This document shows, piece by piece, positions 4,105 to 60,658 of a DNA stretch of 64,000 bases (its first letter is position 1; every line of letters starts with the position of its first letter). The stretch covers positions 16,284-80,283 of the forward strand of contig JALFYY010000005.1 of NCBI GenBank assembly GCA_022783865.1. The letters are read 5' to 3'. The translations under genes were made by a program, and so were the position numbers. This DNA is from Bacteroidales bacterium. Lineage in GTDB: Bacteria; Bacteroidota; Bacteroidia; Bacteroidales; Paludibacteraceae. The notes beneath the pieces are model-generated. The model saw only the letters and a program-made list of their open reading frames with translations, made no database searches and was not told the origin of the DNA.

Positions 4105-4190
4105 ATTGCAATAAATTATAAGTTTATACGTGATTTAAGGGATTGCAAAGTTACGGCTTTTTCTGCAAACAAGCAAATATGGGGGGAATT

Positions 4191-4246
4191 GCGGAGTTGA
4201 ATAGTTGAGGAGATGAGGAGTTGAGTAGTTGAAGAATTGAGGACCT
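4191..4246 (+). repeat. 8-nt tandem array (7 units, GAGGAGTT-like)
   Basis: gcggagtt gaatagtt gaggagat gaggagtt gagtagtt gaagaatt gaggacct. Confidence 0.75.
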
Positions 4247-4290
4247 GAATCTTAGCAGTATATTAAAATTATTAACGCTGTTTTTTCTCA

Positions 4291-4323
4291 TAAACCTTGT
4301 ATGACCCTTGTATAACCCTTGCG
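4291..4323 (+). repeat. 11-nt tandem array (3 units, TATGACCCTTG family)
   Basis: taaaccttgta tgacccttgta taacccttgcg. Confidence 0.75.
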
Positions 4324-9305: not shown

Positions 9306-9854
9306 ATGAATAAAAAATGGATGTGTAGCGTGTGCGGTTATGTACACGAAGGACCAACTCCTCCGGAGTTCTGTCCGCAATGTCATCAACCTGCTTCTAA
9401 GTTCGTAGAAGTAAAGAGTGACAAACTCGAGTTCGCTTGCGAACACGTAATTGGTGTTGCTAAAGGTTGTGACGAAGAAATGATCAACGACCTCAATGCT
9501 CATTTTATGGGTGAAGCTACTGAGGTGGGTATGTATCTGGCAATGAGCCGTCAAGCTGACCGTGAGGGTTATCCAGAGATTGCAGAAGCTTTCAAGCGTT
9601 ATGCTTTCGAAGAAGCTGAACACTGCGCTAAGTTTGCCGAATTGCTCGGTGATGTAGTTTGGGATACCAAGACGAACCTTGAGAAACGTATGATGGCAGA
9701 GAACGGTGCTTGTGAAGATAAGTTCCGTATCGCCAAGCGTGCTAAAGCGCTTGATTTGGACGCTATTCACGATACTGTTCACGAAATGGCTAAAGACGAA
9801 GCTCGTCACGGACGTGGTTTCGAAGGATTGTATAACCGCTATTTCAAGAAATAA
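9306..9854 (+). CDS. Reverse rubrerythrin (N-terminal rubredoxin, C-terminal ferritin-like diiron domain)
   Basis: [20 protein letters not shown] at N-terminus; E...EEAEHCAKF and [12 protein letters not shown] diiron ligands. Confidence 0.9.
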
Positions 9855-9897: not shown

Positions 9898-9933
9898 AAA
9901 AAGAATGTGTATCATAGGGTACACATTCTTTTT
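9898..9933 (+). terminator. Rho-independent-type hairpin after rubrerythrin
   Basis: aaaaagaatgtgta ... tacacattcttttt. Confidence 0.75.
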
Positions 9934-9988: not shown

Positions 9989-10032
9989 GAGGGTTGCTGC
10001 AAGGGTTATACAAGGGTTATGCAAGGGTTATA
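9989..10032 (-). repeat. 11-nt tandem array (4 units; TATAACCCTTG family, inverted)
   Basis: gagggttgctg caagggttata caagggttatg caagggttata. Confidence 0.8.
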
Positions 10033-10061: not shown

Positions 10062-11333
10062 TCAGTAGCGCAACCATTTCCATAGTTCTGCCCACGTGGG
10101 TTTCTTGCCGTACATCAGAATGCCGGTACGGTAGATTTTTCCTGCCATCCATGTACTGCCCGCAAAAGATGCAATCAGTATTCCTATCGACAAAGCAATC
10201 TCCCACCATGCCACATCAAACGGTAAACGCACCAACATGACAATCGGTGAAGTAAACGGAATCATCGAGCACCAGAAAGCCAACGGACCGTCGGGATTCT
10301 GTGCACTGTAGATGGCAGCATACATGGCAAAAAGGATAGGAATAATAAGTACCAACGAGAACTGTTGCGTATCTGTTTCGTTGTCAACAGCCGACCCGAA
10401 GGCGGCAAAAAACGAAGAATAGAGCAGATAACCACCCAGGAAATATACCACAAACAACACCAATAACTGAGCCATATTCACCGATTGCAGTGCATTGGCT
10501 ATCTCCATTGCCATGCCGCTTTCTTGCGCCATAGCGGCAGAAGCATCGCCTCCCGGAAGCAATGGCAACAGTGTTCCGGCACATACCCATATCAGTGCTA
10601 CCCACAAGAAGAACTGTGTCAGTCCTACCAGAGCAATACCTATTATTTTTCCCATCATCAGTTGGAACGGACGCACTGAGGAAACCATCACTTCCATAAT
10701 GCGGTTTGACTTCTCTTGCACTACGCCTGACATTACTTGCGCACCGTACAGCACGATAAACATATAAATAAGGAAAGCTGCGAACATTCCCACCAGTGTT
10801 GCAACTTCTGCCGAACCGATAGTTTCTTCTCCGTCTTCGCTCCATTTCACTGTGGTTATCTGTATATGGGTTTGTGTGTCTTTGATAATCTGCTGTAAAT
10901 CAGGAATATTATATGCCGCAATCTTCTGTTGCTCCACAAAGCGGCTCAATATGCTGTTCAGATAGGCAACCGTCTCCGTATTCGCCTGTTTCTCGGAATA
11001 ATAAGTGGCTTTATTCTCTTCTTGTGCCAAATTGCCTGCTATACAGAGGAAACCTGTTGCATCGGGATGTTCCTGGCGGGCTTCGGACAAACCGGAGTCG
11101 GTATAGAAGAAACGATAGCCCTCACTGTCGCTAAACACCGGTTGATACAAGCCTGAGGCGTCAACTATAACAATACTTCTCACCGTGTCGCTTTTGGCTT
11201 GAGAAAGCAACAACGGTACTGCCACTATTCCTACCAGCAAGAGCGGCATAAGGAAAGTAAGCAGAATAAACGATTTCTTGCAGACACGCGTTTTGTATTC
11301 GCGTCCGATGATAAGAGCTATTTTTGATTGCAT
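10062..11333 (-). CDS. ABC transporter permease (NatB/ABC-2 type)
   Basis: 423 aa; six-TM layout, IVLYGAQVMSGVVQEKSNRIMEVMVSSVRPFQLMMGKI motif. Confidence 0.87.
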   Translation of the reverse strand: MQSKIALIIGREYKTRVCKKSFILLTFLMPLLLVGIVAVPLLLSQAKSDTVRSIVIVDASGLYQPVFSDSEGYRFFYTDSGLSEARQEHPDATGFLCIAGNLAQEENKATYYSEKQANTETVAYLNSILSRFVEQQKIAAYNIPDLQQIIKDTQTHIQITTVKWSEDGEETIGSAEVATLVGMFAAFLIYMFIVLYGAQVMSGVVQEKSNRIMEVMVSSVRPFQLMMGKIIGIALVGLTQFFLWVALIWVCAGTLLPLLPGGDASAAMAQESGMAMEIANALQSVNMAQLLVLFVVYFLGGYLLYSSFFAAFGSAVDNETDTQQFSLVLIIPILFAMYAAIYSAQNPDGPLAFWCSMIPFTSPIVMLVRLPFDVAWWEIALSIGILIASFAGSTWMAGKIYRTGILMYGKKPTWAELWKWLRY

Positions 11334-13598: not shown

Positions 13599-13631
13599 TA
13601 TCCCTTCGGTATCCCTAAAGTATCCTTAAGG
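13599..13631 (+). repeat. 11-nt tandem array (3 units; TATCCCTAAAG)
   Basis: tatcccttcgg tatccctaaag tatccttaagg. Confidence 0.75.
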
Positions 13632-16561: not shown

Positions 16562-16604
16562 ATGAGCCTGCATGAGTGGGTTATTAGTGGGTGATTCGGC
16601 TGTT
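16562..16604 (+). repeat. 11-nt tandem array (about 4 units; reverse complement related to AATCACCCA family)
   Basis: atgagcctgc atgagtgggtt attagtgggtg attcggctgtt. Confidence 0.6.
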
Positions 16605-27380: not shown

Positions 27381-27438
27381 ACCGCTTATATATGGTTATG
27401 TTTGCAACAATATGTCAACTATGTATCATTTAGGCACT

Positions 27439-27471
27439 CATGCAGGGTTCATACGGGGCTCATACGGCACT
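27439..27471 (-). repeat. 11-nt tandem array (3 units)
   Basis: catgcagggtt catacggggct catacggcact. Confidence 0.7.
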
Positions 27472-27552: not shown

Positions 27553-27608
27553 ATGTCTCATCTCTTCAACTTCTTATTTCTTCATCTCCTCAACTTCTCA
27601 ATAACTCA
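27553..27608 (-). repeat. 8-nt tandem array (7 units, inverted orientation)
   Basis: atgtctca tctcttca acttctta tttcttca tctcctca acttctca ataactca. Confidence 0.7.
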
Positions 27609-27646
27609 TTGGCAGAATTAGATACGCACTGAACTAATTCTGCCAA
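27609..27646. repeat. 13-bp perfect inverted repeat hairpin
   Basis: ttggcagaattag-atacgcactgaa-ctaattctgccaa, directly abutting the 8-nt array. Confidence 0.7.
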
Positions 27647-36368: not shown

Positions 36369-38270
36369 TCAAGGAACAAACACTTTTTGTTGTCCGTGAA
36401 TGTAAATTCCGCTTTGGGTGGGTGGTGCGGTAAGGCGTCTGCCCAAGATATCGTACCAAACCTTGTCTGTTTTATCCGTTTCCGCAGGCGAAAGACAATC
36501 TGTGGTATGTCTTTGTGAAACAGGCAATAACAGGCGTATATAGAGGTCGTCGGTTTGGTTGGCAAATTCAGTGTCGTAGTAAGTAATATCGTTCAACATG
36601 CTGGTAAGCAACGCATCCATCTGTGGTTTGAAAAGGTTCATGATGGCTTTGATACGGATTTGGCGTTCGTAAGGTTCGTATTGTTCCTCCATCATTTTGT
36701 CGAGCATTTGTTCCATGCCGGTTTGTACAAGTGCCGGAATGGTGTCGGTTTGTTTGAGATGTTCGTTGGCTTCGTTGTGGGTAAGTAAAGCGAGTGAGAT
36801 AGGTTCACCCAGATACTGACAGACCATAGCGGCAGTTATATTCCGGTCGGCAGGAAGCCACCCGAAAAGTTGATAAAAGATATCTTTGATAGTGCTACTG
36901 CTCTGACATATTTCATCGATACGGTTGAGCATGGTAAAAGTCAGACTGCGGGTTATTTGCGGTATATGACGAGTCATTTCTTCCCTGCCATATCGCATGA
37001 AATCGGGGATAGTGTCCAACGACCGGATATAGCGTGTTTGCACATCTATTTCGTCGCCCCATGCGCTCAGACGCAACAGACGATAAGGACAGGGATAGGC
37101 AATGGCAGATCCTGTGGTTATTTCTACGATGCTGTCGGTGAGGGCTTCGTTGTAGTAGGTGGTAATGTCAGAAGTATGCATATGCCCTGTCAGCACGAGG
37201 TGTATGCCATGTTGCATAAAGATGCGGCTAATGCTGTCGCCTTGTGTAATGGCGGCACTCGGCATCAATTGTTCCTGCATATAAATGTGTTGCAACAACT
37301 GGTGGTGCATCATAGCAATGACAGTCTTGCCGTCAGCCTGCGCCAAATCGGCTTGTTGAAGAATCCATTGTAAGGTTTCTTCACGGATTTGTCCATCCGC
37401 TACCGTTTTGTTTGCGGCATCACCATGTTGTATGCTCAGATTATCGTACCAGCGTGTGGCATCGATTCCAAGTACACAAATGCCCGGAAACGGTTCGGCG
37501 AGGTAAGAGAGCGAATTCGGATCACGTTGCACATTATCGCCATAACCATAGTCATGATAGAGACCTGCAAATTCATCGGCAAGGATGTCTCGCGCCGGAT
37601 AGGTGGCATCACCATCGTAGTAGCGTGCATTGGGGTTTTTGATATCGTGATTCCCCGGAATAACCAATGTAGGAATGCCCGCTTCTTTGAGTTGTTGCAA
37701 GTGAGAGAGAACCAATTCGTGGCTGAGATATTCGCCGTCTTTGGTAAGGTCACCGGCAATTAGTACGAGGTCAGGGCGATACGAAAGGATACTATCGGTC
37801 AATGCATTGAGAACATCTGCACTATGTGCCAACATCTTGCGGTCGGAGTTCAAAAGTCCGGTGTAGGCAGTACCTTGATTTTTCACCAAGTCCGGGTGCA
37901 TAACATGGATGTCGGTGAGCAGGCAGATATTCCATGTTTTGCGTTGCAACGGATGGTCGGTGACAGTAAAAAAGGCAGAATCAAGTGCGATATTGTTCTG
38001 TTCACATCTGATTTTGTAATGCCCCGGTTCCAAAGTGCTTTCTGTCAGAAAACTGCCATTGCCCGATTCTGTTACATTGTAGATAGTCCTCAAAGGCAGC
38101 AACGCTTCATCTTTGTAAAGACAGAGCAAAGCGTTCTGCGGAAGTCCGGTATAAGTAACACTAACCGTCTTTCCCTGTTCAGTAACAACAGGTGAAGGAA
38201 CAATAGTTTGCGCTTTCGTTCCTATAGCAAGGAGCAAAAGCAGAAAAAAGAGATATATTGACTGACGCAT
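36369..38270 (-). CDS. Metallophosphoesterase, secreted, with C-terminal sorting-like tail
   Basis: LLTDIHVMHPD, IAGDLTKDGE, IPGNHD, LTGHMHTSD; C-terminus VWYDILGRRLTAPPTQSGIYIHGQQKVFVP. Confidence 0.88.
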   Translation of the reverse strand: MRQSIYLFFLLLLLAIGTKAQTIVPSPVVTEQGKTVSVTYTGLPQNALLCLYKDEALLPLRTIYNVTESGNGSFLTESTLEPGHYKIRCEQNNIALDSAFFTVTDHPLQRKTWNICLLTDIHVMHPDLVKNQGTAYTGLLNSDRKMLAHSADVLNALTDSILSYRPDLVLIAGDLTKDGEYLSHELVLSHLQQLKEAGIPTLVIPGNHDIKNPNARYYDGDATYPARDILADEFAGLYHDYGYGDNVQRDPNSLSYLAEPFPGICVLGIDATRWYDNLSIQHGDAANKTVADGQIREETLQWILQQADLAQADGKTVIAMMHHQLLQHIYMQEQLMPSAAITQGDSISRIFMQHGIHLVLTGHMHTSDITTYYNEALTDSIVEITTGSAIAYPCPYRLLRLSAWGDEIDVQTRYIRSLDTIPDFMRYGREEMTRHIPQITRSLTFTMLNRIDEICQSSSTIKDIFYQLFGWLPADRNITAAMVCQYLGEPISLALLTHNEANEHLKQTDTIPALVQTGMEQMLDKMMEEQYEPYERQIRIKAIMNLFKPQMDALLTSMLNDITYYDTEFANQTDDLYIRLLLPVSQRHTTDCLSPAETDKTDKVWYDILGRRLTAPPTQSGIYIHGQQKVFVP

Positions 38271-38355
38271 ATATATACTATGAAATAGTGTAAATAATTG
38301 GTGCAAAGGTATTAAAATTTTAGGAATTCGGCAAGAGTGCATTACGGAATTTGCT

Positions 38356-38390
38356 TATGACCCTTGTATAACCCTTGTATGAACCCTTAC
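38356..38390 (+). repeat. 11-nt tandem array (3 units; TATGACCCTTG TATAACCCTTG)
   Basis: tatgacccttg tataacccttg tatgaacccttac. Confidence 0.8.
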
Positions 38391-38467
38391 TCGGAAAGTA
38401 ATAGACAGAGGGGTGAAGGCAAAGACAGCCGGTTTTCGCGAACAGAAAAGGTATAAAAGCGACAAAA

Positions 38468-38523
38468 CGGGAAGAATTGGGCATTATCGGGAACAAACGG
38501 GAAGAATCGGGAATTATCGGGAC
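38468..38523 (+). repeat. 10-nt phased array, GGG every 10 nt (6 occurrences)
   Basis: cgggaagaat tgggcattat cgggaacaaa cgggaagaat cgggaattat cggg. Confidence 0.8.
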
Positions 38524-46810: not shown

Positions 46811-46824
46811 AAGCGGTTAGTATG

Positions 46825-46864
46825 AGTAGTTGAGTAGTTGAGGAGTTGTGGAGTTGAGAAGTTG
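46825..46864 (+). repeat. 8-nt tandem array (5 units)
   Basis: gagtagtt gagtagtt gaggagtt gtggagtt gagaagtt. Confidence 0.75.
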
Positions 46865-47933: not shown

Positions 47934-47981
47934 GTTATCTGCTTCGTTATCTGCTTTGTTATCTGCTTCGCGATCCGCTGA
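47934..47981 (+). repeat. 12-nt tandem array (4 units; GTTATCTGCTTC)
   Basis: gttatctgcttc gttatctgcttt gttatctgcttc gcgatccgctga. Confidence 0.75.
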
Positions 47982-48068
47982 GGGCGGTGGAGTAAAAAAG
48001 CAGTTATTCGATGATTTTAGCACAGAAACAGCAAGATAAGTGCTTGATAACAAAGCGATAGTATATGA

Positions 48069-48123
48069 ATCACCCAGTAATCACCCAGTTATCACCCAGT
48101 AATCACCCAGTTATCACCCAGTT
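48069..48123 (+). repeat. 11-nt tandem array (5 units; ATCACCCAGTW)
   Basis: atcacccagta atcacccagtt atcacccagta atcacccagtt atcacccagtt. Confidence 0.9.
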
Positions 48124-48200
48124 TTGGAAGCAAGCTGACGGCTTGAGAAAAGCATCAATGCAGCATGATAACTACTTGAAAACATACTGATTATATATGA

Positions 48201-48233
48201 ATCACCCGATCACCACCCGATAATCACCCGATG
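48201..48233 (+). repeat. 11-nt tandem array (3 units; ATCACCCGATA)
   Basis: atcacccgatc accacccgata atcacccgatg. Confidence 0.85.
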
Positions 48234-58100: not shown

Positions 58101-58155
58101 TCCTTTAGGGATACTTTAGGGATACTTTAGGGATAGCGAAGAAATAGCGAAGCGT
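58101..58155 (-). repeat. 11-nt tandem array (5 units; reverse-complement unit TATCCCTAAAG)
   Basis: tcctttaggga tactttaggga tactttaggga tagcgaagaaa tagcgaagcgt. Confidence 0.85.
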
Positions 58156-60388: not shown

Positions 60389-60658
60389 ATGAACAAAGTT
60401 GAATTAGTTGCTGCTGTTGCAGCAGAAGCAGGTTTGACAAAAGTCGTTGCTCAAGCAGCTGTCGAAGCTACTGTTAATGCCATCAAAGACGCATTGGCAA
60501 AAGGTGAAAATGTACAACTCGTAGGTTTCGGTACATTTGCTGTTACCGAGCGTGCAGAGCGTAACGGTGTAAATCCTGCTACCGGAAAGGCTATCAAAAT
60601 TGCTGCTAAGAAAGTTGTTAAGTTCAAAGCAGGTAAAGCTTTGGCTGAGACTCTTTAA
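60389..60658 (+). CDS. HU family DNA-binding protein
   Basis: 89 aa; GFGTFAVTERAERNGVNPATGKAIKIAAKKVVKFKAGKAL. Confidence 0.95.
   Translation: MNKVELVAAVAAEAGLTKVVAQAAVEATVNAIKDALAKGENVQLVGFGTFAVTERAERNGVNPATGKAIKIAAKKVVKFKAGKALAETL

Follow-up and report, generated by a model that had tools for sequence, protein, structure and literature searches.

The locus at positions 9989..10032 of the window, i.e. the whole 64,000-nt stretch of DNA analysed here, lies in the gap between two convergent genes, a rubrerythrin-like gene on the + strand (9306-9854) and an ABC permease gene on the - strand (10062-11333). It contains an array of an 11-nt unit, here referred to as family A, with the three units TATAACCCTTG / CATAACCCTTG / TATAACCCTTG on the - strand (10000-10032) and a degenerate fourth unit in the same register (9989-9999). 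Two further family A arrays are present on the + strand. At 4289..4321, the three units CATAAACCTTG TATGACCCTTG TATAACCCTTG are followed in register by CGAGGGGTGCG TGATGGTTGCT, while at 38356..38389 two exact units (38356-38377) are followed by a third, TATGAACCCTTA, with one inserted base (38378-38389). Re-reading of the window sequence confirmed the original prediction that the three loci share one unit in both orientations; the strict 11-nt spacing that it described holds at 4289-4321 and 10000-10032, but is off by one nucleotide at 38378-38389. TATRACCCTTG (at most one mismatch) has seven matches in the window, all of them within the three arrays, compared with 1.44 expected from shuffles, and none of 100 shuffles reached seven. 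The convergent gap also holds a long inverted repeat (AAAAGAATGTGTA...TACACATTCTTTT; 9898-9932), which by eye reads as a bidirectional terminator and is distinct from the array. The third array is adjoined by two copies of a 30-nt unit with an internal, CGGGAAGAAT-like periodicity of 10 nt (38465-38522), and the gene at 36369-38342 encodes a metallophosphoesterase (PF00149) with a weak likeness, far under the cut-off, to the anti-phage phosphoesterase model NF053862.

Six additional 11-nt arrays with other units, at 13599, 16576, 27437, 48067, 48200 and 58103, had gone unnoticed in the first reading of the window. Two belong to family B, one with the units TATCCCTTCGG TATCCCTAAAG TATCCTTAAGG (13599..13631, +) and one with three perfect copies of TATCCCTAAAG on the - strand (58103..58135). 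A family C array has the two units GAATCACCCAC TAATAACCCAC (16576..16597, -), and a degenerate A-like array has TATGAGCCCCG / TATGAACCCTG on the - strand (27437..27467). Upstream of gyrB, a family C2 array has five units of [TG][AT]ATCACCCAG (48067..48121, +); a second, diverged array of the same family has three units of AATCACCCGAT (48200..48232, +). Tandem repeats of other periods are also present, i.e. three 8-nt arrays of a GAGTTGAG/GAGATGAG unit (4185-4250, 27557-27609 and 46818-46864), which is one of the two main 8-nt families genome-wide with 48 intergenic arrays, and three copies of the 12-nt GTTATCTGCTTC upstream of the gyrB arrays (47934-47970). An Rfam scan of the window returned a tRNA only. 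The HU gene to which the original prediction drew attention is indeed present at 60389..60658 (+; PF00216, E 7.9e-32) and is one of four HU-type matches in the source genome; its product is a candidate reader of phased DNA.

The source genome is a 1.92-Mb draft in 29 contigs, of which 1.216 Mb (63%) were scanned, with 892 genes called in this part by a simple home-made hexamer gene finder. With a criterion of 16 matching bases out of 18 at lag 11, 174 kb of intergenic DNA contained 135 loci, whereas dinucleotide shuffles gave 0.0 and predicted coding sequence, 1.04 Mb in total, gave 0. The corresponding intergenic counts were 0, 3, 2 and 0 at lags 9, 10, 12 and 13, and 15 and 36 at lags 7 and 8. 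The period-11 arrays listed number 131 in ~1.22 Mb, 129 of them outside predicted genes. By density, the source genome has 87.7 arrays/Mb at period 11 compared with 13.9 at period 7. Only 0-6 intergenic arrays were found at each of the periods 9, 10 and 12, and at periods 7 and 8 a few related units predominate. The 11-nt repeat observation is thus confirmed: the repeats are non-coding, as had been proposed, genome-wide enrichment over shuffled sequence, on which the original prediction had staked itself, is present, and the phenomenon is much larger in extent than first described. Two contig ends lie inside near-identical paired B/A arrays (G000:C16:246281-246387 and G000:C11:52722-52830, i.e. 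L024 and L020; 122 nt, 95%), indicating that the assembly breaks at these repeats.

The period-11 units form 27 clusters with a few large families and several families per genome. The large families are A (TATRACCCTTG), B (TATCCCTAAAG), C/D/E (TAATMACCNAN; hereafter CDE) and G (CCGTACMATTS), while F, H, I and J are smaller; the array families are dispersed at tens of loci in the source genome. A and B arrays often face each other with a few tens of bases between them. Despite the sequence variation among units, core-to-core distances are a multiple of 11 in 564 cases and deviate from it in 14. The register carries on across changes of unit type, giving rise to in-register blocks of up to 189 nt (median 107 nt, 90th percentile 183 nt). 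It also persists outside the arrays, with lag-11 matches in excess (z>=4.4) up to 160-180 nt away from the array edges and an excess at lags 22 and 44 when the arrays together with 60-nt margins are masked. The arrays show the fixed spacing and conserved core of iterons.

Based on these data, we tentatively suggest, with a confidence that falls somewhat short of even, that the arrays are a satellite-like lineage in which the helical period is held since something reads one face of the DNA. In this model, arrays would arise and grow by in-register duplication, and may be copied from spacer to spacer by recombination and then diverge, much like satellite DNA. A putative DNA-binding protein, either nucleoid-associated or dedicated, would bind one unit after the next along the same helix face, thereby holding the period at one turn. 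The main rival, which we consider less probable but a serious contender, is a purely neutral or selfish satellite. In that case, an old 11-nt lineage would have been spread by recombination or template switching, re-expanded by slippage and tolerated in promoter-free spacers, with period 11 by descent and no binding function. The excess of lag-11 matches, the restriction to intergenic DNA and the register beyond the arrays argue for binding arrays; this persistence of the register and the near absence of phase slips speak against a neutral satellite. The face-of-helix reading advanced in the original prediction fits this near absence of slips as well as the genus-wide core described below.

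Variation among the units bears on both models. In the CDE unit (173 units), A3, A6, C7 and C8 are conserved at 0.99-1.00 while positions 9 and 11 are freely variable, and common variation is limited to a few unit positions. This conservation counts in favor of binding arrays, and at first we took such position-specific invariance as proof of selection. That reading was weakened by the rare variants, which are recent and show no significant heterogeneity across unit positions (p 0.11-0.38), i.e. they are spread roughly uniformly over the unit as under neutrality, which argues for the neutral satellite and against binding arrays. Sequence constraint on the units is suggested, and selection as well as a neutral model with shared ancestral variants and recent spread could yield the patterns observed in the present data. 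CDE and G units are more like their array neighbors than like units elsewhere (0/300 permutations); this similarity is weak in family B and absent in family A. The similarity of adjacent units in CDE and G supports a neutral satellite, and the local homogenization in B, CDE and G, as a product of slippage alone, counts against binding arrays. Slippage, the other explanation originally offered, is visible locally within B, CDE and G arrays, but is not supported for family A and is not enough on its own to place one array family at tens of loci. Outside the known families, as separated by a loose family filter, exact 11-nt duplications are rare and not commoner than 10-nt ones. A length-11 mutational seed, such as a primer length or transposon target duplications, was rejected on these grounds, and the excess would come from amplified families rather than from a length-11 mutational bias, which counts in favor of a neutral satellite. 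Intrinsic curvature of the units does not exceed that of shuffled units (mean percentile 0.47, KS p 0.44-0.79), and S/W, R/Y or M/K phasing is at chance level; the lack of extra bending and S/W phasing counts against binding arrays.

With respect to genes, arrays are found mid-gap, the 5th percentile of their distance to gene starts being 99 nt, in agreement with a neutral satellite. They occupy 99 gaps, compared with ~95 under random placement without an exclusion zone and ~76-87 when a zone of 100-200 nt preceding gene starts is kept free; the latter comparison favors binding arrays. Among size-matched gaps of 100-250 nt, arrays are present in 7/23 convergent, 3/120 co-directional and 0/19 divergent gaps, and among those of 250-400 nt in 6/13, 9/46 and 1/16, respectively. 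This convergent-gap preference, which is absent in 7/8-nt arrays, is at odds with a neutral satellite. In the binding-array model, the protein would be present mainly in promoter-free mid-gap DNA and between convergent genes, and bound arrays would organize or topologically insulate the neighboring transcription units.

The same preference would be expected if the arrays were gyrase sites or supercoiling sinks, i.e. if a topoisomerase or HU were wrapped by 11-bp phased DNA at the places between convergent genes in which positive supercoils gather, as in E. coli BIME-2. The lengths of the in-register blocks are close to a gyrase wrap, and E. coli gyrase sites provide a parallel, as they have phased 10-bp G/C variation and are enriched in BIME-2 as well as downstream of operons (PMC6379681). 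However, the units lack S/W phasing beyond chance and extra curvature, the period is 11.0 rather than 10-10.5, and hairpins of the REP type are absent; we therefore consider this explanation unlikely. Even less probable, to the point that we give it little weight, is that the arrays are transcription signals, i.e. terminators, regulator boxes or Rho-utilization sites, which are C-rich with ~11-nt spacing. Many units are C-rich on one strand and G-poor, and PhoB/OmpR-type regulators bind 11-bp direct repeats. By contrast, the C-rich strand matches the strand of co-directional genes in 23 cases and opposes it in 30 (p 0.41), leading us to reject Rho-utilization or termination by strand; moreover, 40 of the 125 scored arrays are in divergent gaps, arrays stay ~100 nt clear of gene starts, and their RNA structure is weaker than that of other intergenic DNA. 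Array orientation has no overall preference relative to gene strand, GC skew or replichore, and the strand bias relative to replichore raised in the original prediction is thus absent; family B alone is skewed relative to gene strand (4 against 18, p 0.004), in one of 12 tests.

Hairpins, RAYT-driven spread and reverse-transcriptase addition were likewise rejected as explanations. REP-like RNA or DNA hairpins do not account for the arrays, which fold less than other intergenic DNA and show no excess of palindromic hairpins. For RAYT-driven spread, the Y1 transposase PF01797 had 0 matches in the source genome while the control was positive in 5/14 genomes. No reverse transcriptase genes for telomerase-like or retron-like addition or for a DGR were found in the source genome, and its transposases amount to one remnant; mobile elements are possibly missing from this draft. 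The lack of a copying enzyme is also a difficulty for the neutral satellite. Carriage by phages or viruses was rejected because both queried units had no match in 2.9 million viral or phage contigs. Flank alignments showed no MITE-type terminal inverted repeats or target-site duplications, and no empty sites were available, the nearest congener having 79-80% gyrB identity.

Unit A is absent from 119 further genomes of its family and from the contigs of 84,980 GTDB species and, as judged from these searches, is species-specific. By contrast, TAATMACCNAN arrays, counted by pattern matches alone, are present in 70 of the 131 genomes of the genus (source genome included) and in 0/292 genomes outside it. 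Array-rich species also give matches to the reversed pattern used as control, owing to near-mirror words within TAATAACCCAA-type arrays; many positive species and all 292 outsiders have no such match. Unit G is present at low copy in 3/100 congeners. Congeners have their own units, and the 1.14 Mb sampled from them contain 21 period-11 and 70 period-7 arrays per Mb, while 472 kb from other Bacteroidota have 53 arrays/Mb at period 7 and none at period 11. The three loci are members of a genus-specific class of tandem repeats that are dispersed in intergenic DNA and keep to a period of 11 bp. Retention of the TAATMACC core across a genus with 71-80% gyrB identity to the source genome favors binding arrays over a neutral satellite, for which the species-specific units speak. 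The coexistence of several unrelated unit families, with families such as A being species-specific, counts against binding arrays, since a single sequence-reading protein predicts otherwise. So do the 61/131 genomes of the genus without TAATMACC arrays and the orthologous-site comparison, in which two syntenic congener arrays both lack an array at the position in the source genome, congeners being too diverged for more such comparisons. What places binding arrays slightly ahead in our view is that the spacing is almost never violated, that a core extends across the genus and that convergent gaps are preferred, and the original interpretation as a whole is partly supported. More speculatively, and with a low probability in our estimate, the arrays might represent a bacterial counterpart of satellite DNA with a chromosome-organizing role, in which helically phased sites, roughly one per transcription-unit boundary, are read by a fast-evolving, genus-specific putative protein, and the unit families are replaced from species to species with the 11-bp pitch maintained.

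Intergenic short-tandem-repeat families are already known in bacteria, e.g. the heptamers GGGAATC of Xanthomonas and GGGGA(T/C)T of Nostoc (PMC4692102) and TAACTGA of Beggiatoaceae (PMC4679880), and intergenic SSRs of 6-11 bp and long SSRs have been surveyed (PMC4060949). Like STRR/long SSR families, including the cyanobacterial STRR, the class described here consists of a hundred-odd dispersed intergenic arrays of few units each that share a lineage-restricted unit, are present in both orientations and are patchy across lineages; convergent pairs of arrays are also found in the Xanthomonas family. However, those families are 7-mers with one or few units, whereas the present class has a period of 11, comprises many unit families within a single genome and register, and is confined to one genus while 7-mers are found in most other Bacteroidota sampled. 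BrickBuilt of Porphyromonas gingivalis, a minisatellite-MITE from the same order, also consists of dispersed intergenic tandem repeats but has a 23-nt unit within a MITE with terminal inverted repeats and hairpins (PMC4596501), none of which were seen in the 11-nt arrays. REP/BIME elements are likewise intergenic, dispersed and enriched at gene ends; the 11-nt arrays differ in lacking a palindromic hairpin excess, and the source genome in lacking a Y1/RAYT transposase. The 10-11 bp A-tract periodicity of bacterial genomes also has a period close to the helical repeat and is stronger in intergenic DNA, but it is a weak statistical AA/TT phasing (PMC516772, PMC1242344, PMC3940949). The 11-nt arrays, by contrast, consist of separate, nearly exact tandem repeats that contain few A-tracts and do not raise curvature. 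The 11-bp iterons of ParR/parC and the 11-bp direct repeats of PhoB/OmpR are arranged head-to-tail, and a protein reads them from one face of the helix. These are single loci or promoters, while here ~130 arrays with several units are found in ~100 spacers without promoter placement. A phrase search of the literature on 11-bp intergenic repeats in Bacteroides/Bacteroidetes found no paper. Within the literature searched, a genus-restricted class of 11-bp period with many units in register is a previously undescribed form of the known intergenic families.

Short tandem repeats in bacterial intergenic DNA are usually seen as single-unit curiosities; here, a large genus of gut-type Bacteroidota retains one period while the unit changes, and the arrays are at gene boundaries. 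The origin of the helical-pitch signal in bacterial intergenic DNA thus becomes directly testable, with the arrays as natural baits for one-face readers and >100 congeners as replicate experiments, and if the arrays are neutral, they would represent a clear case of satellite-like evolution in bacteria. The preferred period varies by species within the genus, and in one congener (G087; L103, L104, L124-L127) 7-nt arrays (e.g. ACAGGCG) rather than 11-nt arrays predominate.
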